Positions 8,753-27,880 of a stretch of 53,264 bases of DNA are shown here, piece by piece. The position numbers and the translations under genes were made by a program. Position 1 is the stretch's first letter. Every line of letters starts with the position of its first letter. The stretch is from Phenylobacterium sp. (GTDB lineage: Bacteria; Pseudomonadota; Alphaproteobacteria; Caulobacterales; Caulobacteraceae). Below the pieces are notes generated by a model that saw only the letters and a program-made list of their open reading frames with translations, had not been told where the DNA came from and made no database searches. Location: the NCBI RefSeq assembly GCF_004297125.1, contig NZ_SCVD01000011.1, positions 65,286 to 118,549 of the forward strand, given 5' to 3'.

Positions 8753-11265
8753 GCGAGGCCCACCAGCTTCACCGTCGGTACGGCGTTGGCGCCCTGCAGG
8801 AAGAAGCGGTCGGCGACGGCGTTGGACAGCCGCATCAGGGCGGCCTCATAGGTCTTGACCTTGTCGGCGTGGAGGGTGGCGGCGTCCTCGGTCTCGAGTT
8901 CGGCGGCCAGCGGCAGCAGGATCTTCGACGGTTCCTCCAGGATCCCGTCCTCCTGCAGGGTCGGCAGCACCGCCAGGTGGTCCTTCAGCGCCGCCACCTG
9001 GAAGGCGACGGAGCGAGTGTTGAACGGGTCCAGCATGACCAGGTCACGGACGGCGTTCAGCGCCAGGCCGACGAGGTAGCGGGCGCGGTAGGTGATCTGG
9101 CTGTCGTTGAGGTCCAGCAGCAGGTCGAGGTCGTCGATGGTCGCGGCGTCGTGTGCCAAGGTGCGGGCGAGCTGGCAGGTGTTGGCGCCGCGCTCGATGC
9201 GGCGACCCATGTCCAGGAAGCGCCAGCCGGCGACGCGGTTCATGTTCTCCTGGGTCAGTCCCGACAGGCCGGCCAAGTGGCGCAGGGCCTTCTCCACCTG
9301 CTCCAGCGCCTGGGCCTCGGAGTGGATCTCGTTGGCGCCGCCGGCGAGGTCGCCCTCCAGGTCGACCAACAGGCCCCAGAAGTCCGCCGACAGCCGTTCG
9401 CGCATGCCGGAGGCCGTGCGCTTGGCCGAACGGACGAGGTAGGTCACCGAGCCCCAGGCGCTGGCGTCGTGCAGGGCGTCGCGGGCGGAATCCAGCGCGC
9501 GGGCCGGCCGTGTCTCACCGTCCAGCGCGCCCCAGTCGACCAGCACCCTGCGCAGGGACTCGAAGGTCTGGCCGCGGCCGTGCAGCGAACTCTCGGAATC
9601 CATCAGGCTGGAGCAGAGGGCGCGGACCAGCCGCAGGGTCGCCTCGGTGCGCTCGATGTAGCGGCCCAGCCAGAACAGGTTGTCGGCGGCGCGGCTGGGC
9701 AGGTGGCCCAGGATGCGGCGGACTTTCACCTCGTCGCCGCTGGCGATCAGGCTGAGGCGCTCCACCGGCTTGTCGTCGACCACCCAGACGTCGGCCGTGC
9801 GCGCGCCCTCGCCCATGGAGATGACCCGGGCGTCGGGCCGGTCCGAGGTGCGGCAGAAGCCGCCGGGCAGGATGCGGACGCCCTCTGGCGTCACCGCCGC
9901 GAAGACCCGGAGCGCGAAGGGCGCCGGCTGGAGCTGGCCGTCGCGCAAGACGGGCATGGTGGAGAGCTGGGCCACCTCCTGGCCCACGAAGTCGCCGGGG
10001 CGCTCGGCCAGGCGCTGGCGCAGGACAGCCATTTCCTGCGGCGACAGGTCGGCGGCCAGCCGGGGCTCGGCGAAGTGGCCGCTGCCGGGAAAGGCCGGGG
10101 CGACGGCGAGTTCGTCCAGTCGGGCTTCGACCAGGGCCTGCTCGGCGGCCTGGCCGCACCACCAGGTGGCGATGTTGGGCAGCTTCAGCTCCTCGCCCAG
10201 CAGCCGCCGGCAGAGGCCGGGCATGAAGCTCAGCAGGGCGCGGCTCTCCAGCACGCCGGAGCCCGGCATGTTGAGGACGGTGACCCCGCCGGCGCGGATC
10301 GCCTCCAGCATGCCGGGCGTCCCCAGCCGCGAGGCGGCGTTCAGCTCCAGCGGATCCAGGAAGTCGGCGTCCACCCGGCGCAGGATCACGTCGGCCCGCT
10401 TCAGGCCGGCGATGGTGCGGACCCAGACCTTGCCGTCGCGGGCCACCAGGTCGTCGCCCTCGACCAGCAGGAAGCCCAGGTAGCGGGCCAGGTGGGCCTG
10501 TTCGAAATAGGTCTGGCTGAACGGGCCGGGGGTCAGCAGGCAGATGCGCGGCTCGCTACGGTCGGCGGTGGCGGCCATGCCGCGGCGCAGGGCGTCGAAG
10601 AAGGGGGCCAGGCGGTGGACGTTGAGCCTGTTGTAGAGGTTGGGATAGGCCCTGGAGACCACCAGCCGGTTCTCCAGCGCGTAGCCGGCGCCCGACGGCG
10701 CCTGGGCCCGGTCGTCCAGCACCCACCAGCGGCCGTCGGGGCCGCGCCCCAGGTCGGCGGCGTAGATCTGCAGGTAGCGGCCGGCGGGCGGGGCCACTCC
10801 GCGCATGGCCCGCAGGAAGTCCGGGCTGCCGGTGATGGCCGCGGCTGGCAGCACGCCCTCGTTGACGAGGCGGCCTTCGCCGTAGATGTCGCGGAGGATG
10901 GCCTCCATCAGTTCGGCGCGCTGGGTGACCCCGGCGGCGATCTGGTCCCACTCGGCCTGGGGGATGATCAGCGGCAGCGGGTCCAGCGGCCAGCTGCGCT
11001 CGGTCTCCTCGCCATAGATGCGGTACGAGGCGCCTGAATCGCGGATGTGGCGGGCGGCCATGCCGAAGCGGCCGTCGGAATCGGCGTCCGGATAACTGGC
11101 GAACTCACGCAGGAAGCCCAGCCAATGCCCGCGCGGCTTTCCTGCCGCGTCGAAAAGCTCGTCCGGCACGCCGGGCAGGGGGCGGTAGCCCGCCAGCCAT
11201 TGCGACAGACGCTCGGGGGACGCCCCCGCTGGCGGTCGCGGCGCCATGGTGGTGTCAGACGCCAC
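8749..11265 (-). CDS. Circularly permuted ATP-grasp fused to alpha-E domain
   Basis: 838 residues. Roughly the first 510 form a circularly permuted type 2 ATP-grasp ligase (ASYRIYGEETERSWPLDPLP, WVLDDRAQAPSGAGYALENR, ILRRVDADFLDPLELN). The remainder, from LPSRAADNLFWLGRYIERTE on, is the all-helical alpha-E domain. In many bacteria these are two adjacent genes; here they are fused. With the transglutaminase gene that overlaps it by 4 nt, it belongs to a predicted peptide-synthesis or protein-tagging system described from comparative genomics. The GTG at 11265 has AGGGA upstream; ATG at 11247 is an alternative start. Confidence 0.87.
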   Translation of the reverse strand: MASDTTMAPRPPAGASPERLSQWLAGYRPLPGVPDELFDAAGKPRGHWLGFLREFASYPDADSDGRFGMAARHIRDSGASYRIYGEETERSWPLDPLPLIIPQAEWDQIAAGVTQRAELMEAILRDIYGEGRLVNEGVLPAAAITGSPDFLRAMRGVAPPAGRYLQIYAADLGRGPDGRWWVLDDRAQAPSGAGYALENRLVVSRAYPNLYNRLNVHRLAPFFDALRRGMAATADRSEPRICLLTPGPFSQTYFEQAHLARYLGFLLVEGDDLVARDGKVWVRTIAGLKRADVILRRVDADFLDPLELNAASRLGTPGMLEAIRAGGVTVLNMPGSGVLESRALLSFMPGLCRRLLGEELKLPNIATWWCGQAAEQALVEARLDELAVAPAFPGSGHFAEPRLAADLSPQEMAVLRQRLAERPGDFVGQEVAQLSTMPVLRDGQLQPAPFALRVFAAVTPEGVRILPGGFCRTSDRPDARVISMGEGARTADVWVVDDKPVERLSLIASGDEVKVRRILGHLPSRAADNLFWLGRYIERTEATLRLVRALCSSLMDSESSLHGRGQTFESLRRVLVDWGALDGETRPARALDSARDALHDASAWGSVTYLVRSAKRTASGMRERLSADFWGLLVDLEGDLAGGANEIHSEAQALEQVEKALRHLAGLSGLTQENMNRVAGWRFLDMGRRIERGANTCQLARTLAHDAATIDDLDLLLDLNDSQITYRARYLVGLALNAVRDLVMLDPFNTRSVAFQVAALKDHLAVLPTLQEDGILEEPSKILLPLAAELETEDAATLHADKVKTYEAALMRLSNAVADRFFLQGANAVPTVKLVGLA

Positions 11266-11407: not shown

Positions 11408-12196
11408 ATGCTGCGCCTGTTCCTGTCGGTCGACATGGTCGGTTCGACCGAATTCAAGGCCCGGTTCACCGGCCAGGGCTCGGAGGGCTGGCTGGGCATC
11501 TTCCAGACCTTCTTCACCAGCTTCCCGCTGATGGCGGCCGGCCAGGTCGGGCTGGAATTTCTCGACGACGACCGGACCCCGGCGATCGACGTCTGGAAGG
11601 TGATGGGCGACGAGGTGGTGTTCGTGACCACCCCGTCCAGCGCCGAGGAGCTGACCTCGATCCTCATCGCGCTGCTCAGGACCATGCAGCTCTACGAAGA
11701 GCGGCATTTCCAGCAGCTGCCCCTGCGCCTGAAGGGCACGGCTTGGCTGGCGGGGTTCGACGGCCAGAATATCGAGATCGAGATCCCCGAGCTCAGCAGC
11801 GGCGCGGGCGCGCACCTGGACTTCATCGGCCCCGACATCGACCTGGGCTTCCGGATCAGCAAGTTCGCCCGGCCGGGCAGCCTCGTGATCTCTCTGGACG
11901 TGCTGGAGACCGTGCTGGGCGCACGCAACGCCGCCCGCGCCGCGCTCTACCTGATGGGCAAGGAGCCGCTGAAGGGCGTGATGTTCGGGCGGCCCTATCC
12001 GATCGTCTGGATGCTGGAGGCCGGGCAGTCGTTCGCCTTCCTGCCGTGGGAGGTCGAGCAGGACGCGCTGATGGCGATGGCCGCGACCCAGAAGCCGGCG
12101 TCGGAGGCCGAGCTGGGCCGGACGATCGAGGACATGCGCCACTACCTGCGCAAGATGCACGGCCGCGAGCGCAGGCCGGTGAAGCTGGGCGGCTAA
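11408..12196 (+). CDS. Class III nucleotidyl cyclase-like protein
   Basis: 262 residues. The fold signature of class III cyclases is visible: LFLSVDMVGST with the first metal Asp (D9), WKVMGDEVVF with the second (D68), and GPDIDLGFRISKFARPGSLV matching the VNxAAR region. The Asn that normally stabilizes the transition state is Asp (D145), while the Arg (R149) is kept. It is a stand-alone soluble domain without a visible sensor. Activity and base specificity are uncertain. It lies beside a cluster containing a degenerate cNMP-binding protein, but on a separate transcription unit. Confidence 0.65.
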   Translation: MLRLFLSVDMVGSTEFKARFTGQGSEGWLGIFQTFFTSFPLMAAGQVGLEFLDDDRTPAIDVWKVMGDEVVFVTTPSSAEELTSILIALLRTMQLYEERHFQQLPLRLKGTAWLAGFDGQNIEIEIPELSSGAGAHLDFIGPDIDLGFRISKFARPGSLVISLDVLETVLGARNAARAALYLMGKEPLKGVMFGRPYPIVWMLEAGQSFAFLPWEVEQDALMAMAATQKPASEAELGRTIEDMRHYLRKMHGRERRPVKLGG

Positions 12197-12197
12197 T

Positions 12198-12325
12198 TGG
12201 CGCGTCAGCGCCGAAAGGATTCAACCGCGGAAAATGCAGAAAGACGCAGAAGGCGCATCAGCCACGGCCTCTTCCGCGCCCTTCTGCGTTTTCCGCGGTT
12301 CAAATATACAGCGCCCGCGGCGCGC
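12198..12325. repeat. Palindromic intergenic repeat, copy A
   Basis: 128 bp between convergent genes. The left end TGGCGCGTCAGCGCCGAAAG and right end ACAGCGCCCGCGGCGCGC (12308-12325) match those of the element at 46610-46743 almost base for base. Inside is a long stem: AACCGCGGAAAA (12223-12234) pairs with TTTTCCGCGGTT (12289-12300), and ACGCAGAAGG (12244-12253) pairs with CCTTCTGCGT (12280-12289). The right end reaches the stop codon of the phosphatase gene. It could act as a bidirectional terminator. Confidence 0.8.
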
Positions 12326-13962
12326 TAGGCCGCCGGTCCCTCGTAGCGGACCACCAGGATCGCGATGTCGTCGGATTGCGGCGTCGCCCCGACGAACACG
12401 CGGACGTCGCAGGCCAAGCCCTCGGCCAGCCGGCGCGCCGAGTTGTCGGCCCGGGCGGTGGCGAGCGCGGTCTCGATGCGGTCGGTGGTGAAGAGGTCGT
12501 CCTCGGCGTTGGCGGCCTCGGAGACGCCGTCGGTGAACAGGATCAGGGCGTCGCCGGGCGCCATCTGGAAGGTGGCGCTGCCGTAGGGCACGTCGCCGAT
12601 CACGCCCAGCGCCATGCCCTTCAGCTTCGGCAGGCGCGCCACCGACCCGTCGGCGCGGCGCACGAAGGGCGCCTCGTGGCCGCCGTCCGAGTACTCCACC
12701 GCCCCGGTGCGCAGGTCGAGGATGCCGCTGAAGGCGGTGACGAACATCTCCTGGGCGTTGTCGCGGGCCAGCTCGGTGTTCACGCGGGCCATGATCTCGC
12801 CGGTCGACCCAGCGGTGAGCGCGGTGGCTTTAAACAGCGTCGTGGTCATGGCCATGAACAGGGCGGCCGGCACGCCCTTGCCCGAGACGTCGCCCACCAC
12901 GAAGAACAGGCGGTTCTCGTCGATCAGGGCGTAGTCGTAGAGGTCGCCGCCCACGTGCTTGGCGGACTCCAGCAGGGCGAAGACGTCGACGTCGTGGCGC
13001 TGGGGGAAGGGCGGGAAGGTGCGGGGCAGCATCCCCACCTGGATGTCGCGCGCGGCGGAGAGCTCGCCCTCGACGCGCTCGCGGGCGGCGGTGGCCTGCT
13101 GCATCTCGAGCAGGTAGCGCTGGAGCCGGGCGATCATGGCGGTCATGGCCTCGGCGAGGCTACCGACCTCGTCGGGCCGGCGGCGGCTGATGGCGTTCAT
13201 GGCGGCCAGCTCGCGCTCGTCGGGCTGGAAGTTGCGCTGACCGATGTTGCGGGTGAATTCCGTGAGCCGGATCAGCGGCCCGACGATCCGGTCCACGAGC
13301 AGCCAGCCCAGCAGCATGGACAGCCCGAACATCGCCGCGCCCACGCCGATCGACATCCGCAGCGCCTGGATCAGCCGCTGCTGCACCATGGCCAGGTCGA
13401 CGTCGGCGCCGATCACATAGGTCCGGGCGTCGACGCCCTGAACCGGCACGTAGATCGAGCGAAAGCGCCCGAAGGCGTCGCTGTACTCGTCGAACCGCGG
13501 CTGGCCGTCGTTGAAGGATTGGTGCAGCAGCTTGGGCGCGGTGTCGTAGAGCGCGAAGAACTTCGTCTGGGCGCGCTTCTCGATCTCGCGCGGCGTGGCG
13601 CTGGTGGAGACCGTGCGGATCTCGTCGCCGAACTTCATGTAGGTGTAGACGTAGACGAGGTCGGAGCGCGCGGCGAAGCGCGAGAGGCGGTACTGCAGGC
13701 GGTCGTATTCGGCCGTCGGGATCGACTCAGGGCCGATGATGCGGGCGTGGTATTCGTCCGGGACAATCTCGTTCACGGCCAGGGCGGCGGTGCGCAGGCG
13801 GCCGTCGATGCCCGCCATGATCTCGGTGCGGTCGATATTGTACAGCACCGCCGAGTAGGCCGCGGCCGACACCAAACTGAGCGTGAACAGCAGCAGCAGG
13901 AGCTGGGTCTTGAGCCCGAATCTCCGACGCGGCGCGGCGATCTCGGATGCGGGCTCATTCAT
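12325..13962 (-). CDS. Membrane Cache-HAMP-PP2C (SpoIIE/RsbU type) phosphatase
   Basis: 545 residues: a membrane segment (residues 17-42), a periplasmic Cache-like domain (about 45-200), a second membrane segment (about 205-230), HAMP (to about 290), a short coiled coil, and a PP2C domain with GGDLYDY, GDVSGKGVPAALFM, DGGHEAPF and FTDGVSEA carrying the metal-binding Asp residues. It should dephosphorylate a STAS-domain antagonist, and one is encoded at 19402-19734. Transcribed away from the rest of the signalling cluster, from a divergent promoter region shared with the transporter-HEAT gene. Confidence 0.86.
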   Translation of the reverse strand: MNEPASEIAAPRRRFGLKTQLLLLLFTLSLVSAAAYSAVLYNIDRTEIMAGIDGRLRTAALAVNEIVPDEYHARIIGPESIPTAEYDRLQYRLSRFAARSDLVYVYTYMKFGDEIRTVSTSATPREIEKRAQTKFFALYDTAPKLLHQSFNDGQPRFDEYSDAFGRFRSIYVPVQGVDARTYVIGADVDLAMVQQRLIQALRMSIGVGAAMFGLSMLLGWLLVDRIVGPLIRLTEFTRNIGQRNFQPDERELAAMNAISRRRPDEVGSLAEAMTAMIARLQRYLLEMQQATAARERVEGELSAARDIQVGMLPRTFPPFPQRHDVDVFALLESAKHVGGDLYDYALIDENRLFFVVGDVSGKGVPAALFMAMTTTLFKATALTAGSTGEIMARVNTELARDNAQEMFVTAFSGILDLRTGAVEYSDGGHEAPFVRRADGSVARLPKLKGMALGVIGDVPYGSATFQMAPGDALILFTDGVSEAANAEDDLFTTDRIETALATARADNSARRLAEGLACDVRVFVGATPQSDDIAILVVRYEGPAA

Positions 13963-14074
13963 CGCGGGGCGCGGACCTGTCGGCGGGCGTTCGGGGAAGT
14001 CGAAGCTAGTCTATAGAAAATTAGGCGATGGACGTTAACGCGGTGCGAGCGGCGCCGCCGCGCGAGGGGAATGC

Positions 14075-16711
14075 GTGCAGGGGCTGTTGAACCGTGTGTT
14101 CCGGGTCGAGCGCGGCGAGTGGCCGAAGCTCCTGCAGTTCGGGCTGTTCGGCCTCCTGCTGCAGACCGGAATGGGCATCGGCTTCGCGGCCGGCGACGCG
14201 GCGTTCCTGACCCACGTGGGGCCTGACAAGCTGCCGGTGATCTTCCTGCTGACGCCGGCGGTGATGCTCATCTACACGGCGATCTTCTCGTTTCTGCTGG
14301 TCCGCTTCTCGATCGACCACGTCGTGGACGTGACGCTGGCGGCGCTGATCGGCGGCGGGGCGATCCTGTGGGGGCTGATCCAGGTGGGCCTGCCGGAACC
14401 GTACGAGACCGGGCTCTACTACGTCCTGAAGTTGTACCTGGCGATGTGGTACATCGCGCTCTACTCGCTGTTCTGGAACTTCACCGACGCCTATTTCGAC
14501 ATCCAGGACGCCAAGCGGCTGTTCCCGCTGTTCTCGGCCTTCTGCGCGCTGGGCTCCGCCATCGGGGCGCTGATCGTAAGCCTGCTGGCCAGCGTCCTGC
14601 CGATGCATGCCTTCCTGCTGGTCTGGGCGGCCGTGGCGTTCGCGACAGCCCCGGTGGCGCTGCTGTTGCGCCGCCGCTGGCAACGGATCGCCGACAGCGA
14701 CACCGACCTGGACGGCGACAGCAAGAGCGTGCTGAGCCAGTTGGGCCAGGTGGGCCGGGCCTTCAGGACCTCGCCCTATGCGGTGACCCTGGTGCTGACG
14801 CTGTTCGTCACCCTCCTGATGACCAACCTGGCGGAGTACCAGTACTCGACCGTGCTGCAGGCGGGCCGCAACGAGGCCCAACTGGCCACCCTGTTCGGCC
14901 GGCTCTACGCGGGCGCCAGCATCTTCAACCTGATCGTCTGCCTGTTCGTGTTCAACCGGTTGGTGACGCGGATCGGGGTGCGCAACGTCGCCCTGGTGCT
15001 ACCGCTGACCTATTTCGCGGTGTTCGGCTATTTCTTCCTGGCGGGCGGGACGATGGCGGCGCTGGCGGCCTTCTTCGCCTATCACGGCGTGCTCACGTCG
15101 ATCGAGTACAACAACCAGAACCTGCTGTTCAACGCGACGCCGTCGCAGGTGAAGCGGCCGTTCCGCACCGTGGTCGAAGGGCTGTGCGAGCCGCTGGCCA
15201 GCCTGCTTGCGGGCGGCTTCCTCCTGCTGGCGGCCAAGAATTCCGACATGCGCGAGCTGTCAGGGATCGGCGTGCTGCTTGGAGCCACGCTGATCGCCGT
15301 GGTGGCGGCGCTGCGCCACTACTATCCGGCAGCCATGGAGGCCAACATGCGGCGCGGCTGGCTGAACTTCGGCGACTCGGACCTGCATGCGCCGCAGTTC
15401 GACGAGGCCGCCGCGGACCTGCTGCGCGAGAAGGCGGCCGAGGCCGACTCCGGCGCCGCGCAGGCGGCCCGCTCGCTGCTGCACCGTCGCGGCGCCCGGC
15501 CGGCCCGCGACGCCCTGGCCGCCCAGGCCTCTGACGCCACCGAGGCCTTCGCCGCCAAGCTGTCCGATCCCTCGCCGTCGGTGCGCAAATATGCGTTGCA
15601 GGCGCTGGCCAGCGTGGTCGGCCCCGGCGACATCGCCCTGGTGGCGCCGCTGGTCCAGAACCTGCCCCTCACGGACCGAGCCAGCCGCGCGACGATCCTG
15701 GAGCTGCTGGGCGCCATCGGCGACGTGGAGGCGATCCCCCAGATCCTGGGCGCCGCCGCGCGCCTCAGCCCGCGCGAGCTGCGCGCCACCGAGACAATGC
15801 TGGCCGGGCTAGGCGACGCGGCGATCCCGCGCCTGATGCAGGTGCTGTCCAACTACCAGGCGTCCTACCGCGCCCGGGCCGTGGCCGCGCGCGCGCTCAG
15901 CACGCTCTCCCATGCCCAGTTCGTCTCGCAACTGGAACGGCTGGTCACCGAGGAGCTGGACGAGACGGGCCGCCGGCTGGGCGTGGCCGAGCGGTTCGCG
16001 GCCGAGGGTCGGCGTTCGCCGGCGCTCAGGCTGCTGGCTGACGCCTATCGGCAGCGGATCGGCGAGTCGGTGGACTTCACTCTGGAACTGCTGGCCCTGG
16101 GCGGGCGGCTGCCCGACTTCGACCTGCTCATCGTCTCGCTGCACTCGGCCAATCCGAAGGTGCGCGGCAATGCGGTGGAGGCCATCGCCAGCGGTGTGGG
16201 CCACGCCACGTGGGAGCGGCTGGACCCCCTGGTCAACCGCAGGGCCGCCGGTGAGGCGGCGGCCGGCGACTTGGTCGATCTGCTGAAGGCCGCCGTCGAG
16301 AGCGGTCACGGGTTCGAGGCCGCCGCCGCGGCGCAGGCGCTGCGCGACCTGCTTCCGCCCGCCGAACTGGCCGCCGCCCTGCGCCGCGGCCTGACGTCCG
16401 ACATGGCGCCCATCTTCCGCGATAGCTTCACCAACCTGTTGGGACTGGACGCGGAGCCCCGGCCGACCGCCGTCGATCTTGTCGAGGCCATCCGCGGCGT
16501 GTCCGACCTGGCGAACGCCTCCATCGACGCCCAGGTGGCGCTGGCCGAGCGGGCGACGCCCACGCCCGCCGCCCGCGGGCCCGTCGAGCTGAAGCTTGAG
16601 GGCCGGTCCTTCTGGATCACGCGCGCCGACGTCGACGAGGTGGCCGCCCGCTACGCCGACCTCGCGCTGACCATGCTCAAGGCCAGGGACGACCGGTCCT
16701 ATGCCGCCTGA
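14075..16711 (+). CDS. Nucleotide-transporter-like (NTT/MFS) membrane protein fused to HEAT repeats
   Basis: 878 residues. The first 430 or so contain about 12 hydrophobic segments with features of the ATP/ADP translocase (TLC/Npt) superfamily, such as EWPKLLQFGLFGLLLQTGMG and ALYSLFWNFTDAYFDIQDAK; the middle part EYNNQNLLFNATPSQVKRPF fits too. Residues about 480-830 are helical HEAT-type repeats (LSDPSPSVRKYALQALASVV, ANPKVRGNAVEAIASGVGHA). The start is GTG with GAGGGG upstream. It overlaps the next gene by 11 bp, heading a four-gene operon of signalling proteins, so a sensory role for the transporter part is likely. Plain MFS membership is the alternative. Confidence 0.66.
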   Translation: MQGLLNRVFRVERGEWPKLLQFGLFGLLLQTGMGIGFAAGDAAFLTHVGPDKLPVIFLLTPAVMLIYTAIFSFLLVRFSIDHVVDVTLAALIGGGAILWGLIQVGLPEPYETGLYYVLKLYLAMWYIALYSLFWNFTDAYFDIQDAKRLFPLFSAFCALGSAIGALIVSLLASVLPMHAFLLVWAAVAFATAPVALLLRRRWQRIADSDTDLDGDSKSVLSQLGQVGRAFRTSPYAVTLVLTLFVTLLMTNLAEYQYSTVLQAGRNEAQLATLFGRLYAGASIFNLIVCLFVFNRLVTRIGVRNVALVLPLTYFAVFGYFFLAGGTMAALAAFFAYHGVLTSIEYNNQNLLFNATPSQVKRPFRTVVEGLCEPLASLLAGGFLLLAAKNSDMRELSGIGVLLGATLIAVVAALRHYYPAAMEANMRRGWLNFGDSDLHAPQFDEAAADLLREKAAEADSGAAQAARSLLHRRGARPARDALAAQASDATEAFAAKLSDPSPSVRKYALQALASVVGPGDIALVAPLVQNLPLTDRASRATILELLGAIGDVEAIPQILGAAARLSPRELRATETMLAGLGDAAIPRLMQVLSNYQASYRARAVAARALSTLSHAQFVSQLERLVTEELDETGRRLGVAERFAAEGRRSPALRLLADAYRQRIGESVDFTLELLALGGRLPDFDLLIVSLHSANPKVRGNAVEAIASGVGHATWERLDPLVNRRAAGEAAAGDLVDLLKAAVESGHGFEAAAAAQALRDLLPPAELAAALRRGLTSDMAPIFRDSFTNLLGLDAEPRPTAVDLVEAIRGVSDLANASIDAQVALAERATPTPAARGPVELKLEGRSFWITRADVDEVAARYADLALTMLKARDDRSYAA

Positions 16712-17801
16712 CGGGACGCCGATCAAAACCCTGCTGTGGCGGACCTTCACGCCGGCGATCCTGGTCCTGGCGGTGGTGCTGGGCGCGCTGGTCTACAACC
16801 GGCTCTACGACACCATCCTGGACGGCTTCTCGCGCAAGCTGGTCACCACCAGCGCGATCGCCGGCGCCCTGATCGATCCGGCCGACCACGACTTCCTGAT
16901 CCGCGCCGCCCAGGTCCGCGCCCCGGCCGAGGCGGTGGAGGCGATGCCGCAATACCGGCGCAACGTCGAGCCGATGCGGCGCGTGCGGCGCGAGCTGGGC
17001 CTGACCTATCTCTATTCCCAGGTGCTGGGCGGGCCAAAGGACGTGATCTATGTCCTGGACGCCACCGAGGGCGAGGAACACTCGACCATCGGGTCGGAAG
17101 ACGAGCTGACGCCCGAGACCCGCATCGGCCTGCGCCGCACGATCGCCGACGGGACGATCTATGTCTCGCCGATCGAATTCCAGGAGCAGTGGGGCCTGCT
17201 GAAGACCGCCGCCGCGCCGATCCGGGCGCAGGACGGGCGCATCGTCGCCACGGCGGGCGCCGACGTGAACATCTCGGTGATCGAGGTTGCGACGCAGAAC
17301 GCCCTGTTCGCCAGCGCCCTGATCGGCGTGGCCTCGCTGATCGCCTCGGCGCTGGTGACCTTGCTGATCGTGCGGTGGGTGGCGCGGCCGATCGAGGGGC
17401 TCAAGGCCGACGCGCTCAGGATCGCGGCGGGCGACCGAGCCCCGCCGGCCGTGGTGGCGGCGCCGCGGGAGGTCGCGCGGCTGCGCGAAGCGCTGGCGGA
17501 GCTGGCGACGCACCTGATGGCCGCCATGCGCGAGGCATGGAGCGACACGCTCGCCCTGGACCGCGCACGCAACGCCGCCAGGCTGGAGGCCGCTCTGCCT
17601 GCCGCGAAGCCCGTGACGTTGGTGGCCGACGGCAAGCACCGCGTCGTCTGGACGCCCGCGGGCGATACGCTGGAGGCCCGGCTTGAGCACCGGGCCATGA
17701 CCCTGCTGGCCGAACGCTTCGCCGCGCAGCCCAGGCTGGCGGCGGCGTGGCGGGACCTGGCGAACCCGGCGTACGGCGCCGTGCAAGAGGTCCGGGCATG
17801 A
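16701..17801 (+). CDS. Cache-HAMP membrane sensor without an output domain
   Basis: 366 residues: a membrane segment at about 14-33, a periplasmic Cache-like region (LGLTYLYSQVLGGPKDVIYV, AGADVNISVIE), a second membrane segment (about 195-220) and HAMP (RPIEGLKADALRIAAGDRAP). The cytoplasmic remainder of about 100 residues matches no catalytic domain I know. Its periplasmic part resembles that of the PP2C phosphatase at 12325-13962 (SDLVYVYTY, IGADVDLAMVQ). The stop overlaps the next ATG, so the cNMP-like and degenerate PP2C proteins that follow may act as its detached output. Confidence 0.7.
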   Translation: MPPDGTPIKTLLWRTFTPAILVLAVVLGALVYNRLYDTILDGFSRKLVTTSAIAGALIDPADHDFLIRAAQVRAPAEAVEAMPQYRRNVEPMRRVRRELGLTYLYSQVLGGPKDVIYVLDATEGEEHSTIGSEDELTPETRIGLRRTIADGTIYVSPIEFQEQWGLLKTAAAPIRAQDGRIVATAGADVNISVIEVATQNALFASALIGVASLIASALVTLLIVRWVARPIEGLKADALRIAAGDRAPPAVVAAPREVARLREALAELATHLMAAMREAWSDTLALDRARNAARLEAALPAAKPVTLVADGKHRVVWTPAGDTLEARLEHRAMTLLAERFAAQPRLAAAWRDLANPAYGAVQEVRA

Positions 17802-18187
17802 TCGGCGCCGAGGCCGTCCAGCGCCTGTTCATCCTGCGCGCCGTCGGACCGTTTCAGCGGCTGGAGGATGCGGAACTCCTGCTCATCGCGCGCCACGCCC
17901 GCGTGAGGACCTTCCCGCCCGGCAAGGTGGTGATCGCGGCGGGCGTGGTGGCCGAGGCCATGTTCGTGGCGCCGCTGGGCGGCGTCGAGGTCGGGGGCGC
18001 GGCGGCTCCGGTGGTGTTCGACGCGCCTGGCCTGCTGTTCGGCCTGGCCGCGCGCGCCGACTACGTGGCGGGGCCCGAGGGTGTTGAGGCGCTGGTCATC
18101 GCCAAGCCGCATGTGTTCACCATCGCGCGCGAGTGCCCGGAGTTCGTGGTGGGCCTGCGCGACCTGGCGGAACGGACGGCGCCGTGA
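17798..18187 (+). CDS. Degenerate cyclic-nucleotide-binding-like protein
   Basis: 129 residues. The beginning is like a CNB domain (LRAVGPFQRLEDAELLLIAR, RTFPPGKVVIAAGVVAEAMF), but the phosphate-binding cassette with its Glu and Arg is not seen: the corresponding part reads FDAPGLLFGLAARADYVAGP. It may therefore not bind a cyclic nucleotide and could serve as an interaction module. It overlaps both neighbours by 4 nt (ATGA and GTGA), so stoichiometric production with the sensors either side is likely. Confidence 0.6.
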   Translation: MIGAEAVQRLFILRAVGPFQRLEDAELLLIARHARVRTFPPGKVVIAAGVVAEAMFVAPLGGVEVGGAAAPVVFDAPGLLFGLAARADYVAGPEGVEALVIAKPHVFTIARECPEFVVGLRDLAERTAP

Positions 18188-19425
18188 GCATCCGGCGCAC
18201 CTTCCTGCTGCTGATCGCGCCGCTGTTTCTGCTGCTGGCGGGCGTGAACGGAGCGTTGCTGTACCTCTGGGAGCGGGCCGAGGCCGAGCGCGGCCTGGCT
18301 GGCCAGGCGATCGCCGCGGCGGTCACCACGGCGGCCTTCGCCGACGCGTCGGACGACCTGGCGCACGCACTGGCGGATCGGGCCCGCACGGAGGCGCTGC
18401 GCGACGCCGCGCGACGCGTGACGGGGCTGCAAGGCCTCTACATCGTGCGGCCGGATGGCCAGACCGTGCAAATCGTCGGACGCCCGTCCGCGTTCTGGCC
18501 GGGGCGCTTCGAAGCGCCGCGCGCGCCGGTGGCGGCGCCGATCCGGTCCGACCCGACCGGAAGGCGGATGGCCACGGGCCTGGCCCCTGTCGCGCGCGGC
18601 GGCTACGTCATCGCCCAGATCGACGCTGACCCCCTGTTCGCCCAGGTGGAGGGCTTGCAGCGGCTGATCGCCGGTGTCGTGGCGGCGGCGGGTCTGCTCG
18701 GCCTGGCGCTGGCGCTGGCGATAGCCCGGCTGATCGTGCGCGAACTGGCCCGCAACAGCGCCATGATCGCGGCGATCCGGGCCGACCAGCCGCCCGGGGA
18801 CGCGGATCGGTTCGCGATCCGCGAGACCCGCGACCTGGCGCTGGCCGTGCGGCTGATGCGGGCCAGCGTCTCCGGCCGCATGGCCCGAGGCCGCCATGAG
18901 CTGGCGCGCCGCGACCGGGAACGCGACGAGGCGGGCGCCGTGGCGGCCCACCGCGAGACCGCCTTCGCGGCGCTCGCCACCACCGCGGCGGGCGCCGCCC
19001 TGGCGGTCCGGATGCTGGGCGCCGCGCCGGCGGGAAGCTTCTACGCCCTGTGCGATGGCGATGGCCGCGCGACGCTGGTGCTCGGAGACTGCGCCGGAGA
19101 CACGCCCTCTGACGCCCTGGCCCGTGCTGTGGCGGCGCGACGGTTCTTCGAGGCGAACCTGGCGACAACCGCGCGCGTCGCCCAGGGCGAGGCGGCCTTC
19201 GCCCTGACGCGGGTGGCCTGGATCGCGTGGTCCGTCGAGGCGCCGCCCGCGGCCCAGGCGCTGGCCCTGCTGGACGGCGACGACGCGGACCGGGTCGCGG
19301 CCTATGTGGTCCGCGCGGAGGGCCTGGATCCCAGCGCGATCATCGACGACCTGGCGACGCTGCTGCGCTTGGACGGCGTGGTGGCGGTGGTGCGGCCGGG
19401 CTCAGCCCAGGCTGGCGAGGGCTGA
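18184..19425 (+). CDS. Membrane protein with HAMP-like linker and degenerate PP2C domain
   Basis: 413 residues from a GTG overlapping the previous stop. There are membrane segments at about 6-28 and 160-183, a small periplasmic part between them, a HAMP-like helix pair and a C-terminal region aligning with SpoIIE PP2C. GSFYALCDGDGRATLVLGDC corresponds to GGDLYDY...VVGDVSG of the active phosphatase, with the first metal Asp replaced and the second kept. The domain also stops short. It probably lacks phosphatase activity and may regulate the partner-switch proteins by binding. Its 3' end overlaps the convergent STAS gene by 24 bp. Confidence 0.62.
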   Translation: MSIRRTFLLLIAPLFLLLAGVNGALLYLWERAEAERGLAGQAIAAAVTTAAFADASDDLAHALADRARTEALRDAARRVTGLQGLYIVRPDGQTVQIVGRPSAFWPGRFEAPRAPVAAPIRSDPTGRRMATGLAPVARGGYVIAQIDADPLFAQVEGLQRLIAGVVAAAGLLGLALALAIARLIVRELARNSAMIAAIRADQPPGDADRFAIRETRDLALAVRLMRASVSGRMARGRHELARRDRERDEAGAVAAHRETAFAALATTAAGAALAVRMLGAAPAGSFYALCDGDGRATLVLGDCAGDTPSDALARAVAARRFFEANLATTARVAQGEAAFALTRVAWIAWSVEAPPAAQALALLDGDDADRVAAYVVRAEGLDPSAIIDDLATLLRLDGVVAVVRPGSAQAGEG

Positions 19426-19734
19426 CTCCACGTCGGCCTCGATGGCGAAGATGCTGGTGAAGCCGCTGATGTCGAACACCTCGCGCACGGTCTGGGCGAG
19501 GCCGGTGAGCACCAGCTTGTGGCCCTTGGCGCGAGCCGCCTTGGCGCCGATCAGCATCACGCGCAGGCCGGCGGAACTGACGTAGGGCACTTCGGCCAGG
19601 TCCAGGATGACCTTGTCATGGGTCTGCACGCGGGCGGGCAGGACGGCTTCAAGTTCGCCGGCGGAACCGGAGTCCAGCCGGCCCGTCGCCGCCACCACGA
19701 GCACGTCGCCGCGGGTCTCTTCGTTGATCTGCAT
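19402..19734 (-). CDS. STAS-domain anti-sigma factor antagonist (RsbV/SpoIIAA type)
   Basis: 110 residues covering exactly one STAS domain. DLAEVPYVSSAGLRVMLIGA carries the serine normally phosphorylated by an RsbW kinase (S54 by alignment with SpoIIAA). The start at 19734 is chosen for a GAGGGG 6 nt upstream; the frame is open to 19779. It is divergent from the RsbW-like kinase gene, so both may share regulation. The PP2C at 12325-13962 is the obvious candidate phosphatase. No anti-sigma target sigma gene is adjacent. Confidence 0.9.
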   Translation of the reverse strand: MQINEETRGDVLVVAATGRLDSGSAGELEAVLPARVQTHDKVILDLAEVPYVSSAGLRVMLIGAKAARAKGHKLVLTGLAQTVREVFDISGFTSIFAIEADVESALASLG

Positions 19735-19840
19735 CGGGGCCCCTCGCGATCCCGCCGTCGCCGCGGCCTTTGAGATCATTCGCCGCGCGACTAGACTGGC
19801 AACCGTGAGTCACCGCAAGGCCCCAGAGCGGGCGAGCGAT

Positions 19841-20287
19841 ATGGAACCGGACTTCTCCCATACGCTCCTCGACGGGGCCGTGGGCCTTTCGGCGCTGCTC
19901 GACACCCTGGAGGAGGAATTGGTCGCACGCGGCGTGCCCCTGGCCGCCGTCAGCTCGCTGCTGATCGCTGCCGACGAGGTTATCAGCAACGCGCTGAACC
20001 ATGGCGGCGGAGCGCCCGTCGTGGAGGTCGCGGCCCGGGTGGCCGGCGGCCAGGTGACGATGCGGATCACCGACGATGGCGTGGCCTTCGACCCTCTGGC
20101 CGCCGCGCCCCCGGACACCAGCCTGTCGATCGAGGACCGGGAGATCGGCGGCCTCGGCATCCACCTGGTGCGCAAGCTGATGGACCAGGTCGACTACGAG
20201 CGCAGCGGTAAACATAACCGTTTGCAGTTTTCCAAGAGCTTCGCGTCACCGTCGCCTTCTCGACGGACGGCCGACGAGGCATCCTAG
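19841..20287 (+). CDS. RsbW-like serine kinase / anti-sigma factor (HATPase_c)
   Basis: 148 residues. The GHKL ATPase boxes are present: N box AADEVISNALNHG, G1 box DDGVAFDP and G2 box GGLGIHLVRKLMD. There is no histidine-kinase dimerization domain, so it fits the RsbW/SpoIIAB class that phosphorylates a STAS partner and binds either it or a sigma factor. The ATG at 19841 is used; an in-frame GTG at 19805 would add 12 residues. It is followed after 7 nt by the SET-domain gene, suggesting one transcript. Confidence 0.86.
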   Translation: MEPDFSHTLLDGAVGLSALLDTLEEELVARGVPLAAVSSLLIAADEVISNALNHGGGAPVVEVAARVAGGQVTMRITDDGVAFDPLAAAPPDTSLSIEDREIGGLGIHLVRKLMDQVDYERSGKHNRLQFSKSFASPSPSRRTADEAS

Positions 20288-20294: not shown

Positions 20295-20759
20295 ATGCCA
20301 GCCAACACCGAATCGCCCTCGACCGCCGGGGTCCAGCCGGACGCGTCCCTCGAAGTCTGCGACACCGACTCCGAGTACGGCCTCGGCGTCCGCACGCTGG
20401 CTCCACGCCGCAAGGGCCAGGTGATCCACCATTTCACGGGCGTGCTGACGCCCGAGCTGTTGCAGCACAGCCTGCAGGTCAGCCCGGGCATGCACATCAC
20501 CCAGACGGAGATCATCGGCTTCCTGTCGCACAGCTGCGAGCCGGACTGCCGGCTGGACATGGCGCGCTCGGAGCTGGTGGCGCTGCGGGATATCCGGCCC
20601 GGCGATCTGTTGACGATCGACTACGCCGAGACCGAGGACGTGCTCTACCGCCAGTTCGCCTGCCACTGCGGCGCCGCGCGTTGCCGCCATTGGATCACCG
20701 GGCGCACGGAACAGCCCAACGCCGAGGGGCGCGCCTATCTCGCGACGCTGGCGCCATGA
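20295..20759 (+). CDS. SET-domain protein (possible protein-lysine methyltransferase)
   Basis: 154 residues of bare SET domain: YGLGVRTLAPRRKGQVI at the start, the pseudoknot motif FLSHSCEPDC (residues 77-85) in place of NHSCxPN, and LLTIDYAETE. It ends with a Cys-rich post-SET-like FACHCGAARC that could bind zinc. Such small bacterial SET proteins methylate protein lysines or have unknown targets. The stop overlaps the decarboxylase-like gene (ATGA), so the two are translationally coupled and may act together. Confidence 0.82.
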   Translation: MPANTESPSTAGVQPDASLEVCDTDSEYGLGVRTLAPRRKGQVIHHFTGVLTPELLQHSLQVSPGMHITQTEIIGFLSHSCEPDCRLDMARSELVALRDIRPGDLLTIDYAETEDVLYRQFACHCGAARCRHWITGRTEQPNAEGRAYLATLAP

Positions 20760-21991
20760 GCCTGGCCCCGGCTACCCGGCCGGACGCGGGGTTCTGGTGG
20801 GCGCGCGACGACCTGGATTTCCGGGACGGGCGGCTGCATCTGGCGGGCCACGACGTGGGCGCCCTGGCCGAGACGGTCGAGGGGCCGCTGCACCTCTACA
20901 GCGCGGCCCGCATCTCGGCGAACCTGAGGCGGGTCCGGGACGCCCTGGCGGGCACGGGGCTCCGGTCGCGCCTCTACTACGCCATGAAGGCCAATCGCTA
21001 CGAGCCGCTGCTGCGGCATCTGGCGAAGGGCGGCCAGTGCGGGATCGACGTCTGTTCGCCGGCCGAACTGGACCGCGCGCTGGCCTGCGGGTTCGCGGCG
21101 GCGGACATCAGCTTCACCGGCACGGGGGTCTCGAACCGCGACCTGGAACGGCTGCTGGCGCACCCGGACCTGACCATCAACTGCGACGGGGTCGGCATGA
21201 TTCGCCGGATCGGCGAGCGCGCGCCGGGCCGCGCCATCGGCGTGCGGGTCAACCCCGAGCGCGGGGCCAGCTACGGCGGGGCCGAGAAGCTGAGCTATGC
21301 CGGCGACGTAGCAACGAAGTTCGGAATCTACCGCGAGCAATGGCCCCAGGCGCTGGCCATGGCGCGCGCGCATGGCCTGACGATCACCAGCCTGCATTTC
21401 CATGTCGGTTGCGGCTACCTCACCCGCGAGCTCGACGACTGGGACGCGGCGGTAGGGGCGGGCCTGGCGTTCCTCGACGATCTGCCGGACGTCACGACGG
21501 TGAACGTCGGCGGTGGCCTGGGCCTGCCGCACCGCGAGGGCGACGCCCCGCTGGACCTTGGTCGCTGGGCGGCGCTGCTGGCGCAGCGGTTCGCGGGGCG
21601 GGGCGTGACCGTCGCAGTCGAGCCGGGCGACTACATCGTCAAGGACGCCGGCGTGCTGGTCCTGGGCGTCACCGACGTGGAGCAGAAGCGCGATGTGACC
21701 TTCGTCAGCGTCGACGGTGGGTTCAACCTGGCGCCCGAGCCCGCCTACTACGAGCTACCCTGCGAACCCGTCGCCTGCGCGCCGCGCAGCTTCGAGACCG
21801 CGGCCTGGAAGCCGGTGACCATCGCCGGTAACATCAACGAGGCGCTGGATATCTGGGCCCACGCCCAACCGATGCCGGAGCTGCGCGAGGGCGACCGGAT
21901 CGCCTTGCTGAACGCCGGCGGCTACGGGTCTTCGATGAGCTCCAATCACTGCATGCGCGGCGAATTCACCGAGATGCTGCTTCCGGCCTGA
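20756..21991 (+). CDS. PLP-dependent DAP/ornithine decarboxylase-family protein lacking the active-site Cys
   Basis: 411 residues with the alanine-racemase-fold barrel and the C-terminal beta domain of group IV decarboxylases. K78 (YYAMKANRY) would bind PLP; H216, GGGLG (252-256) and E289 (VEPGDYIV) are conserved cofactor contacts. The Cys-Glu/Asp motif (GPxCES in DAP decarboxylase) reads GNINEALD, with N361 at the Cys position. The last motif is GGYGSSMSSNH rather than GAYxxSMSSNYN. The substrate is therefore probably not diaminopimelate. Coupled by a 4-nt overlap to the SET gene. Confidence 0.8.
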   Translation: MSLAPATRPDAGFWWARDDLDFRDGRLHLAGHDVGALAETVEGPLHLYSAARISANLRRVRDALAGTGLRSRLYYAMKANRYEPLLRHLAKGGQCGIDVCSPAELDRALACGFAAADISFTGTGVSNRDLERLLAHPDLTINCDGVGMIRRIGERAPGRAIGVRVNPERGASYGGAEKLSYAGDVATKFGIYREQWPQALAMARAHGLTITSLHFHVGCGYLTRELDDWDAAVGAGLAFLDDLPDVTTVNVGGGLGLPHREGDAPLDLGRWAALLAQRFAGRGVTVAVEPGDYIVKDAGVLVLGVTDVEQKRDVTFVSVDGGFNLAPEPAYYELPCEPVACAPRSFETAAWKPVTIAGNINEALDIWAHAQPMPELREGDRIALLNAGGYGSSMSSNHCMRGEFTEMLLPA

Positions 21992-22054: not shown

Positions 22055-22735
22055 ATGACCCCTCGCCTCGCGCTGTTCGCCGCCGCCGCCCTCGCCGTCG
22101 CGAGTTCAGCCGCGGCGCAGGACGGGCCCGGCTTCGACTTCAATCTCGGGGTCGCCAGCGACTACGTCTTCCGGGGCGTCAGCCAGACCGACGAGAACCC
22201 GCAGGTGTTCGGCGGCGCCGACCTGTCGGTCGGCAGGTTCTACGCTGGCGCATGGGGGTCCAACGTCGACTTCAACGACACGACCGACGCCGAGTTCGAC
22301 CTCTATGCCGGCTTCACGCCGACCGTGGGCGTGGTCTCGCTGGACCTGGGCTTGCTCTACTACGGTTACGTCGATCAGCCGTCGGGCGCGGACCTGGACT
22401 ATCTCGAGCTGAAGGCCGCCGGCAGCGTCCCGCTGGGTCCGGCGACCCTCGGGGCCCAAGCCTACTACTCACCGAACTATTACGCCGGGGTCGACCACGC
22501 CTTCTATTACGAGGTGAACGGGGCGTTCTCGCCCACCGAGAAGCTGTCGTTCAGCGCCGCGCTCGGGCGCCAGCAGGTTTCCGGGGCGGGCGACTACACC
22601 ACCTGGAATGTGGGCGTGGGCTATGCGCTGACCGATCACCTGGGCCTGGATCTGCGCTATCACGATACGGACAAGCACAGCTTGGGCGACACCTACGGCA
22701 GCCGCGCCGTGGTCAGCCTGAAAGCCGCGTTCTAG
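22055..22735 (+). CDS. TorF-family putative outer-membrane porin
   Basis: 226 residues with a signal peptide (MTPRLALFAAAALAVASSAA, cut near AAQDG) and alternating beta-strand sequence ending in F (VVSLKAAF), as in outer-membrane barrels. The motif FNLGVASDYVFRGVSQTDEN is the hallmark of the TorF/Gcw_chp family. It has its own upstream spacer of 63 bp. The transported solute is not known. Confidence 0.86.
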   Translation: MTPRLALFAAAALAVASSAAAQDGPGFDFNLGVASDYVFRGVSQTDENPQVFGGADLSVGRFYAGAWGSNVDFNDTTDAEFDLYAGFTPTVGVVSLDLGLLYYGYVDQPSGADLDYLELKAAGSVPLGPATLGAQAYYSPNYYAGVDHAFYYEVNGAFSPTEKLSFSAALGRQQVSGAGDYTTWNVGVGYALTDHLGLDLRYHDTDKHSLGDTYGSRAVVSLKAAF

Positions 22736-22756
22736 CCCTTCGCCAAGGTTCCGCCC

Positions 22757-23689
22757 ATGACGACCGAAAGCCTGGCCCAGATCGTCGCCGCGGTGGGCAA
22801 GGAGGTCGCCGACGCCCACCGGGGCGAGGGCAAGGTGGCCGACTACATCCCGGCCCTGGCCCGCGTCGACGCCAACCGCTTCGGCATGGCGGTCGTCACC
22901 TGCGAGGGCGAGCTGGCGGAGTACGGCGACGCCTGGCTGCCGTTCTCGATCCAGAGCATCTCCAAGGTCTTCACCCTGACCATGGCGCTGGAACGCCTGG
23001 GCGAGAACCTGTGGGGGCGGGTCGGGCGCGAACCGTCTGGGTCGCGCTTCAACTCCATCGTCCAGCTCGAGGCGGAGAAGGGCGTGCCGCGGAACCCCTT
23101 CATCAACGCCGGCGCCATCGTGGTCACAGACGCGGTCCTGGCCGGCCGGACGCCGCAGGAAGCGATTGCCGACATCCGCGACACGATCCGCCGCCTCGCC
23201 GACAACGACACCATCGACGTCGACAAGGAGGTGGCGGCCTCCGAGGCGGCCACGGGTTTTCGGAACTACAGCCTGGCCAACTTCATGCGCGGCTTCGACA
23301 ATCTGAACAGCCCCGTCGAGGACGTGCTGCAGGCCTACTTCCACCAGTGTTCGCTGCGCATCACATGCCGGCAGCTTGCGCGGGCGGGCCTGTTTCTGGC
23401 CAACGAGGGCGTGGATCCCCTGACCGGAGACGTGATCATCAGCCCCGAGCATGCGCGGCGGATCAACGCCATCATGATGACCTGCGGCCACTACGACGCC
23501 TCGGGGGAGTTCGCCTTCCAGGTGGGGCTGCCGGGTAAGAGCGGCGTCGGGGGCGGCATCCTCACGGTCGTGCCGGAGGTCGGCGCGGTGGCGGTCTGGT
23601 CGCCGGGCCTGAACGAGGTCGGCAACTCCCTCGTCGGCACGCTCGCGCTGCAGCGGCTGGCGTCGCGAATGGGCTGGTCGGTGTTCTGA
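22757..23689 (+). CDS. glsA: Glutaminase A
   Basis: 310 residues, the normal length for bacterial serine-dependent glutaminases, which hydrolyse L-glutamine to glutamate and ammonia. The beta-lactamase-like nucleophile motif is [11 protein letters not shown] (SxxK), followed by [42 protein letters not shown] and [12 protein letters not shown], all family signatures. It begins 21 bp after the porin gene on the same strand, so co-transcription is possible. No ankyrin or STAS extension is present. Confidence 0.95.
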
Positions 23690-23766: not shown

Positions 23767-24510
23767 ATGCGCCTTCGACAGATCGCCCTGGTGGGCCAGG
23801 ACCTGGAGGCCGCCCGCGCGGAGATCGTGGACGTGCTGGGCCTGGGCGCCGCCTACGCCGACCCGGGCGTGAAGAAGTACGGCCTGCACAACGCCGTCTG
23901 GCCGGTGGGTGACACCTTCCTCGAGGTGGTCTCGCCGACGCGGGAGGGCACGACCGCCGGCCGCTTGCTGGAGAAGCGACAGGGCGATGGCGGCTACATG
24001 GTCATCCTGCAGACCGACGATCTGGAGGGCGCCCGGACACGCGTGGCCGAGCAGGGCGTGCGGATCGCCGACCAGTTCGATGGCGATGGTGTGGCCTTCA
24101 CCCACCTGCACCCCAAGGACGTCGGCGGCGCCATCGTCTCCATCGACCATATGGTTCCGAAGGCGCGCTGGGAGTGGGGCGGGCCCGACTGGGAGAAGAA
24201 CGTCCGCACCGACACCTCGCTGGAGATCGTGGGCGCCGAGATCCAGGCCGACGATCCGGGCGCGATGGCGAAACGCTGGGGCGAGGTCCTGGGGCTGGAG
24301 GCGCGCGGCGACGGCCTGCACCTCGACCTTGATGGCGGCGAGATTCGCTTCGTGCTGGCGTTCGACGGCCGGGGCGAAGGCCTGCGCGCCTTCGACGTGA
24401 AGGTGCGAAACCCGGCCGCGGTCCGCGCCCGGGCCGAAGCGCGCGGGAACCTCGACGCCCACGGCCAGGTCACGCTGTGCGGAACGCAGGTCAGGCTGGT
24501 GCAGGGCTAA
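23767..24510 (+). CDS. VOC/glyoxalase-like protein
   Basis: 247 residues with two VOC-type beta-alpha modules (MRLRQIALVGQDLEAARAEI, VDVLGLGAAYADPG; second module from TDTSLEIVGAEIQADDPGAM). Good ribosome site GGGAGGAAG before the ATG. The expected metal ligands are not all recognizable, so it may be a non-dioxygenase VOC protein. It sits immediately upstream of the TGACYAAATGGTCA operators and at the edge of the aromatic catabolic genes, but its own promoter is separate from theirs. Confidence 0.75.
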   Translation: MRLRQIALVGQDLEAARAEIVDVLGLGAAYADPGVKKYGLHNAVWPVGDTFLEVVSPTREGTTAGRLLEKRQGDGGYMVILQTDDLEGARTRVAEQGVRIADQFDGDGVAFTHLHPKDVGGAIVSIDHMVPKARWEWGGPDWEKNVRTDTSLEIVGAEIQADDPGAMAKRWGEVLGLEARGDGLHLDLDGGEIRFVLAFDGRGEGLRAFDVKVRNPAAVRARAEARGNLDAHGQVTLCGTQVRLVQG

Positions 24511-24513
24511 GTC

Positions 24514-24527: not shown

Positions 24528-24577
24528 CAAAATTGTGAAAGGTCGCGCATTGTTCTAGGGAGTCGCTCGCCGTAATC

Positions 24578-27871: not shown

Positions 27872-27880
27872 GGGATCCCG

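Follow-up and report, generated by a model that had tools for sequence, protein, structure and literature searches.

Analysis of a 53,264-nucleotide stretch of a Phenylobacterium sp. genome (contig NZ_SCVD01000011.1, positions 65,286 to 118,549; hereafter, the window) revealed a conserved cassette of ten genes that links an Rsb-type partner switch and a four-gene membrane unit, centered on a nucleotide-transporter-like protein fused to HEAT repeats (NTT-HEAT), to two enzymes resembling BurB and BurI of Burkholderia thailandensis. On balance, we lean towards a reading in which the switch turns these two enzymes on. The enzymes, a SET-domain protein and a pyridoxal phosphate (PLP)-dependent decarboxylase, are predicted to convert methionine to S-methylmethionine (SMM) and further to the amine of dimethylsulfoniopropionate (DMSP-amine), and the switch likely controls the production of a DMSP-type stress compound. 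An earlier, sequence-only reading of the locus had named eight genes, all of which exist, and its description of a transporter-like/HEAT protein combined with a partner switch holds. The end that it had set for the locus was, by contrast, too early, and the SET and decarboxylase genes just beyond it were missed. Nucleotide sensing, which it had offered as a possible function, is not the best supported one, given that the BurB-like and BurI-like enzymes are the likely output.

Conservation and layout of the ten-gene cassette

The cassette, located in a host genome of 5.77 Mb, comprises the eight genes named earlier together with the SET-domain gene (20295-20759) and the decarboxylase gene (20756-21991). 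We compared it with 14 related loci, 13 of them from a scan of 84,980 species genomes and one from a plasmid. In 13 of the 14, all ten genes are present with identical order and orientation, which excludes a lack of conservation in relatives, the outcome that the earlier reading had named as refuting it. The record titles of these loci name Phenylobacterium, Novosphingobium, Sphingopyxis, and Sphingomonas, apart from two metagenome-assembled genomes (MAGs) titled only Alphaproteobacteria and Sphingomonadales; the cassette is thus found in two orders, Caulobacterales and Sphingomonadales, and one copy resides on an 850-kb plasmid. In the exceptional locus (L004), the cassette is split: the genes from the cyclase-like protein through the pseudophosphatase lie on one contig, while the genes for the STAS protein, the RsbW-like kinase, the SET protein, the decarboxylase, a TorF-family porin, and a glutaminase remain together on another contig of the same genome. 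By eye, the left half ends next to a SIMPL-like gene and a recombinase-like frame (L004, 15404-18167), which suggests a past insertion or rearrangement. In another genome (G507), the SET-decarboxylase pair is inverted and still adjoins the switch. The frames of one locus (L013) are disrupted in the Cache-HAMP/cyclic nucleoside monophosphate (cNMP) region, probably owing to MAG errors. The alignments differ in membership: A2 and A4 are without L003 and L013, the fold alignment A7 is without L003, L013, and L001, A6 is without L013, A9 is without L001 and L013, and A8 is without L014 and L004 (whose gene lies elsewhere).

The SET protein and the NTT-HEAT protein also co-occur across genomes. Among the 101 genomes of the genus sample, which includes our own, each was found in 14 and both in 13 (Fisher p 2.4e-14, a value that ignores relatedness). 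In both exceptional genomes, the contig breaks off within the cassette. That of G032 stops in the pseudophosphatase gene, which explains the missing SET gene, and the end of the G507 contig seems to account for the lack of NTT-HEAT in that genome. In the family sample (298 genomes of the Novosphingobium family, with G512 being Novosphingobium mathurense), both proteins were found in the same seven genomes. NTT-HEAT was otherwise confined to one of 385 genomes of the class sample (our own) and to two of 349 of the phylum sample, both from our genus and one of them our own. SET relatives at E<=1e-12 occurred in 12 of the 385 class-sample genomes, of which our own alone also carried NTT-HEAT at 1e-20, and matches stronger than 1e-30 were limited to our own genome, G365, and G275. 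The samples and the loci overlap, as L002, L003, L004, L005, L007, and L012 are six genus-sample genomes and L001, L006, and L009 are three family-sample genomes.

Within the window, the genes of the NTT-HEAT protein, the Cache-HAMP protein, the cNMP-fold protein, and the pseudophosphatase form a tight row with three overlaps of 11, 4, and 4 nt, in agreement with the range of 4-11 nt reported earlier. The PP2C phosphatase and STAS genes lie on the opposite strand and thereby create two divergent gaps, one between the PP2C and NTT-HEAT genes (13963..14074; 96-183 nt in length across the window and the 14 loci) and the other between the STAS and RsbW genes. At their 3' ends, the STAS and pseudophosphatase genes share 24 nt. 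The rsbW, SET, and decarboxylase genes are co-directional, with gaps of 7 and -4 nt.

The SET protein and the decarboxylase

The SET-domain protein (20295..20759, forward strand) is a predicted BurB-like methionine S-methyltransferase. Its closest solved relative is BurB (structures 9l4t/9l4v; 63 of 136 residues identical, 5.5e-35), whereas the next-best SET entry in the PDB, among the histone-type SET domains, reached only 2e-8. The equivalents of BurB residues H72, H93, and Y124 are invariant in 13 of 13 SET proteins, and the position of BurB A44 is occupied by Leu in all 13; the BurB residues listed in PMC12542666 as contacting S-adenosylmethionine (SAM) include H72 and H93 as well as R42, R133, and H138. 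BurB itself shares only 35% identity with its Streptomyces counterpart, according to an excerpt of PMC7496086. A SET tree placed the cassette rows in one group at a support of only 75/81 and with long branches, and it was not used as evidence for membership. BurB-like SET genes also exist in other settings. Two from other Alphaproteobacteria (L041, 8111-8626, and L042, 8756-9163; 40-45% identity to the window protein) have neither the cassette nor its decarboxylase nearby. A third, on the Rhizobium bangladeshense plasmid p7 (L124, 4980-5849; 42% identity), lies directly 5' of a SAM-decarboxylase gene and 3' of an asparagine-synthase-like gene, a gene set that perhaps represents another SMM-type pathway.

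The PLP-dependent decarboxylase (20756..21991, forward strand), whose gene overlaps the SET gene by 4 nt, resembles BurI and SMM decarboxylase (SMMDC). On the lysA model TIGR01048, it scored 217 bits, below the cutoff of 297.9, while a paralog elsewhere in the same genome is a full LysA with 450 bits. Such a second decarboxylase paralog was present in all 14 genomes tested, with 29-36% identity to the cassette enzyme. In a 34-row tree, the 15 cassette decarboxylases and three of three decarboxylases from DMSP-type clusters fell on one side of a 99/99 branch and all 16 paralogs on the other; the paralogs are the 16 with loci among 21 listed, the tree is midpoint-rooted so that the term clade assumes a root outside the group, and its rows do not include BurI and SMMDC themselves. 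In the first of these clusters, from Eleftheria terrae, the decarboxylase is accompanied by a SET protein, an aminotransferase, an aldehyde dehydrogenase, and thiotemplate genes. In the second, from Rhizobium lusitanum, it adjoins a methyltransferase that matches the MmtN structure 7vvv at 3.9e-105, and in the third, from Rhodovulum sp. P5, it adjoins an aminotransferase and is followed by methyltransferase-like and aldehyde-dehydrogenase-like frames, as judged by eye. On the Rhodovulum plasmid (L122, 6926-10678), the decarboxylase frame leads into methyltransferase-like sequence, which seemingly continues in another frame, and, again by eye, the methyltransferase looks broken in this record.

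These comparisons bear on a reading in which the SET protein methylates lysine residues of proteins and the product of the decarboxylase is a polyamine or lysine, so that the locus would serve protein modification or polyamine synthesis. The copy in S. paeninsulae is indeed annotated as "protein-lysine N-methyltransferase" and "diaminopimelate decarboxylase". We nevertheless find this quite improbable, as BurB (5.5e-35) outranks the histone-type SET domains (2e-8), the decarboxylase misses the lysA cutoff in a genome with a true lysA elsewhere, and the tree groups it with the enzymes of DMSP clusters.

The partner switch and the membrane unit

The switch core consists of three proteins. The STAS antagonist, of RsbV/SpoIIAA type (19402..19779, reverse strand, with an alternative start at 19734), matched PF01740 at 5.1e-18 and TIGR00377 with 69.6 bits, over the cutoff of 53.45, and carries an SSAGLR motif at residues 68-73. 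This motif is present in the window and in 13 of 13 loci with a STAS gene inside the cassette, and the STAS frames of L003 and L011 are intact. The RsbW-like serine kinase (HATPase_c_2; 19841..20287, forward strand; PF13581 at 3.5e-22) retains the GHKL-type ATP-site boxes DE..SN, D.G, and GGLG in 14 of 14 aligned sequences. The membrane sensor phosphatase (12325..13962, reverse strand) combines an extracytoplasmic Cache-like domain and a HAMP domain, whose Pfam score is below cutoff, with a SpoIIE/PP2C domain (PF07228 at 8.1e-49); its metal-binding residues D340, D358, D478, D531, and D532 are invariant in 15 of 15 sequences. Pfam and NCBIfam revealed no sigma-factor gene within the ten cassette genes, and no GGDEF domain was reported in them by Pfam. 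Two divergent sigma-70-like sites, against 0.4 expected in the scanned region, were detected at 19770-19802, in the gap that separates the STAS gene from rsbW; these are weak consensus matches and were not used. They overlap the annotated STAS start and are consistent with the alternative start at 19734. An EcfG-type promoter, for which we assumed the motif GGAAC-N15-18-CGTT, had no match in the window.

The NTT-HEAT protein (14075..16711, forward strand) has 878 residues, with a predicted transporter fold at about residues 1-430 followed by HEAT repeats. The modeled NTT part fits best to plant and chlamydial ATP/ADP translocators. At the sequence level, the window protein misses the curated cutoff of PF03219 (12.4 vs 21 bits), and its transporter half gave no NTT match in the PDB even at an E-value of 10. 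PF03219 matches at E<=0.1 were found in 32 of the 45 members of alignment A1, the window protein included; A1 contains this protein and 44 others taken from 120 listed among the 297 relatives found. The C-terminal repeats matched HEAT_2 above cutoff (2.8e-9), and HEAT_2 matches at E<=0.1 were found in 41 of the 45 A1 members. Two weak NTT matches with 26% identity were set aside as other transporters, G011 residing in a 414-residue frame and G012 having no other cassette genes within 9.6 kb.

Three further genes complete the membrane unit. The first encodes a Cache-HAMP protein with no recognized output domain (16701..17801, forward strand; HAMP 21.6 bits, below cutoff), which is akin to the sensor half of the PP2C phosphatase (hhalign of the two alignments: 98%, 1.9e-13, 274 columns). 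The second encodes a small protein with a cNMP-binding fold (17798..18187, forward strand), assigned by comparing its profile with cNMP domains in the PDB. The single-domain chain 1u12 matched at 1.9e-5, while the top match of 6.8e-11 is the sum of several domains, each at 0.16 or weaker, and PF00027 was found in only 2 of 13 members, at best 0.0066. Relative to the Glu/Arg motif that we take to bind the cNMP phosphate in CRP-type domains, the Glu position (77) is P, Q, or A in 13 of 13 sequences and the Arg position (86) is R in 10 of 13, with the register set by eye; the canonical phosphate-binding Glu is absent. The third encodes a Cache-like sensor with a C-terminal PP2C-fold domain devoid of the metal-binding Asp residues, a putative pseudophosphatase (18184..19425, forward strand) recognized by model alignment. 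Its profile had no matches in the PDB, hhalign against the active PP2C gave 6%, and a Foldseek search with its model returned no match at E<=0.001; PP2C domains were matched to the model solely in a second look with VIA-align.

This unit could alternatively operate as a transport system, in which NTT-HEAT is a working nucleotide or metabolite transporter, the switch adjusts transport to the energy state, and the cNMP-fold protein is a regulatory subunit, an idea found in parts of PMC5381601. NTT translocators are the closest folds, and the same excerpts describe an NTT-HEAT gene followed by a cyclic nucleotide-binding domain (cNBD) gene as a recurring pair. We consider this explanation distinctly unlikely: the transport role of NTT-HEAT is itself hypothetical, the cNMP-fold protein lacks the canonical Glu in 13 of 13 sequences, and the linkage to two enzymes would be left unexplained.

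The cassette opens with a cyclase-like protein of 262 residues (11408..12196, forward strand). It bears a class III-like signature, D9 / K64-x3-D68 / D138-x6-D145-x3-R149, which is identical in 15 of 15 sequences and spaced as in a class III nucleotidyl cyclase. Compared with the reference motif as we presume it to be (two metal-binding Asp, substrate-binding Lys/Asp, a transition-state Asn, and an Arg), all 15 sequences have Asp at the expected Asn position. None of the 15 members had a cyclase Pfam match, and in the PDB only one weak hit to a cyclase domain, 1ybt (E 0.39), was obtained, ranked below an unrelated match at 0.068.

Outside the cassette, the stretch immediately upstream (window 8749-11265) contains a circularly permuted ATP-grasp/Alpha-E gene, which occupies the same place in several Phenylobacterium loci. 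On the other side, 3' of the decarboxylase, the TorF-family porin and glutaminase genes (22055-23689) remain beside the decarboxylase in the split genome (L037) and in several Phenylobacterium loci, and weaker TorF matches (28-34%) precede the cyclase-like gene in six sphingomonad loci. Further along (23767-32819), there is an apparent aromatic-degradation set with glyoxalase-like and extradiol-dioxygenase-like genes, an FAA hydrolase, a flavin (FAD) hydroxylase, a major facilitator superfamily (MFS) transporter, and a TonB receptor.

Proposed mechanism and comparison with known systems

In the mechanism that we propose, the RsbW-like kinase would at rest hold the STAS protein phosphorylated on the conserved serine of SSAGL, and once the SpoIIE-type phosphatase senses a signal through its extracytoplasmic Cache domain, STAS would be dephosphorylated. 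The NTT-HEAT protein, the output-less Cache-HAMP protein, the cNMP-fold protein, and the pseudophosphatase may assemble into a further receptor complex, which would either tune the phosphatase or compete for phospho-STAS. By analogy with the action of SiaC on SiaD, dephosphorylated STAS might then activate the SET/decarboxylase pair directly. Input would come through the Cache domains and through the NTT-HEAT unit. The analysis shows which genes are present, their order and co-occurrence, the conservation of catalytic residues, the grouping of the decarboxylase, and the predicted folds; the signal or ligand, what NTT-HEAT does, how STAS reaches the enzymes, and all protein interactions and activities are inferred. 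The final product may be DMSP-amine or, since the cassette has no aminotransferase or dehydrogenase, DMSP formed with enzymes from elsewhere. A partner switch acting on co-encoded enzymes, as in SiaABCD, appears to be the most economical reading.

Several observations weigh against this proposal. In the SET protein, R133 is conserved in only 11 of 13 sequences and H138 in 9 of 13, and the SAM-binding Arg42 of BurB is not conserved. SET proteins about as BurB-like as ours (44-47%) occur in other Alphaproteobacteria (L026 and L027) without this decarboxylase nearby, and because of these other contexts the similarity alone does not fix methionine as the substrate. The cassette contains no aminotransferase or aldehyde dehydrogenase genes (BurD/BurE), so that DMSP itself would need enzymes encoded elsewhere; housekeeping enzymes have been suggested to be able to fill these steps in B. 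thailandensis (PMC7496086, in part). The direct action of STAS on the enzymes is proposed by analogy, and the gene linkage could reflect joint transfer instead of control.

The latter point leads to a further explanation, in which the switch has its target elsewhere in the genome (a sigma factor, for instance, or a global stress regulator), with the SET/decarboxylase pair merely traveling along or being one member of the regulon. Canonical RsbW proteins bind sigma factors, and the patchy occurrence of the cassette (14 of 101 genus and 7 of 298 family genomes), together with the plasmid copy, could be explained by joint horizontal transfer. We judge this rather unlikely, as no sigma factor is encoded among the ten genes, the split cassette keeps the STAS/RsbW pair together with the enzymes, and rsbW lies on one strand with the SET and decarboxylase genes at the close spacing given above.

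Returning to control of the co-encoded enzymes, a stronger version is possible though doubtful: a dedicated membrane signaling complex, with a repurposed ATP/ADP translocator as its receptor rather than a carrier, would set the STAS phosphorylation that directly gates the BurB/BurI pair. The cassette would then be the first phospho-partner-switch to control the production of sulfonium compounds (SMM, DMSP-amine, or DMSP), in a new group of alphaproteobacterial sulfonium producers. The architecture, which the sequence-only reading had not recognized as a named system, is not new in its NTT-HEAT(-cNBD) part, because this is already in print (excerpt of PMC5381601), while the predicted output and the receptor unit are new. 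We regard the cassette, as predicted from its genes, as belonging to the partner-switch kind. In the open-licence PMC literature, no paper was found that combines dimethylsulfoniopropionate with partner-switching, three or more of HEAT repeat, nucleotide transporter, partner switching, and STAS domain, or ADP translocase with HEAT repeats and cyclic nucleotide-binding. BurB was placed only in Burkholderia in passages of PMC9135737 (2022) and PMC13360808 (2026), and a Streptomyces mobaraensis enzyme is called a BurB homolog in PMC12542666. If the proposal is true, the BurB-like/BurI-like pair adds unrecognized sulfonium producers in Caulobacterales and Sphingomonadales, its fixed link to a partner switch offers a handle on how a sulfonium pathway is switched on, and the NTT-HEAT family, described as widespread and functionally unknown (PMC5381601), gains a testable signaling role.

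A functional precedent is SiaABCD of Pseudomonas aeruginosa, where the enzyme that the partner switch directly controls is encoded in the same operon (PMC7278518). Both systems co-encode a membrane PP2C phosphatase, a kinase, an antagonist, and an effector enzyme, and in Sia the dephosphorylated antagonist activates the enzyme. They differ in that the Sia effector, SiaD, is a diguanylate cyclase and its kinase, SiaB, is called unusual, whereas the cassette has a HATPase_c_2 kinase, a PF01740 STAS protein, and a SET methyltransferase and a decarboxylase as candidate effectors; siaABCD is, moreover, described as a four-gene operon without an NTT-HEAT unit (PMC7278518).

Chlamydia trachomatis likewise has a membrane HAMP-PP2C protein (RsbU), RsbW, and STAS antagonists, as well as CT589, a membrane PP2C paralog without metal-binding residues, beside RsbU by locus number (ct588, ct589), as reported in sections of PMC4552016. 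It also possesses an NTT-HEAT protein (PMC5381601, in part), which the consulted sections of the two papers do not tie to the switch. Unlike in the cassette, the locus numbers place rsbW and both rsbV genes elsewhere, and the target is sigma-66 (PMC4552016, same sections). The NTT-HEAT-cNBD family shares with the cassette the fusion of NTT to HEAT repeats, sometimes with a cNBD gene next to it within a few nucleotides (excerpt of PMC5381601), while the cassette differs by a Cache-HAMP gene in between, a pseudophosphatase gene after it, and the attached partner switch and sulfonium enzymes.

The B. thailandensis locus of BurB and BurI also combines a small SET protein with a PLP decarboxylase, and the His of the SAM site and the active-site Tyr are conserved between the two (parts of PMC12542666 and PMC7496086). 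The cassette, in contrast, lacks aminotransferase, dehydrogenase, and thiotemplate genes, has lost the Arg42 equivalent, and is regulatory rather than a natural-product cluster. Finally, RbaV/RbaW/RbaY of Rhodobacter capsulatus is an alphaproteobacterial STAS/kinase/PP2C switch that affects the gene transfer agent and stationary-phase viability; a cognate sigma factor was sought without success, and its output is proposed to be the STAS protein, as stated in an excerpt of PMC3999984. In that same excerpt, it differs from the cassette by a REC domain as the input of the phosphatase and is described without an NTT-HEAT unit or an enzyme cassette.

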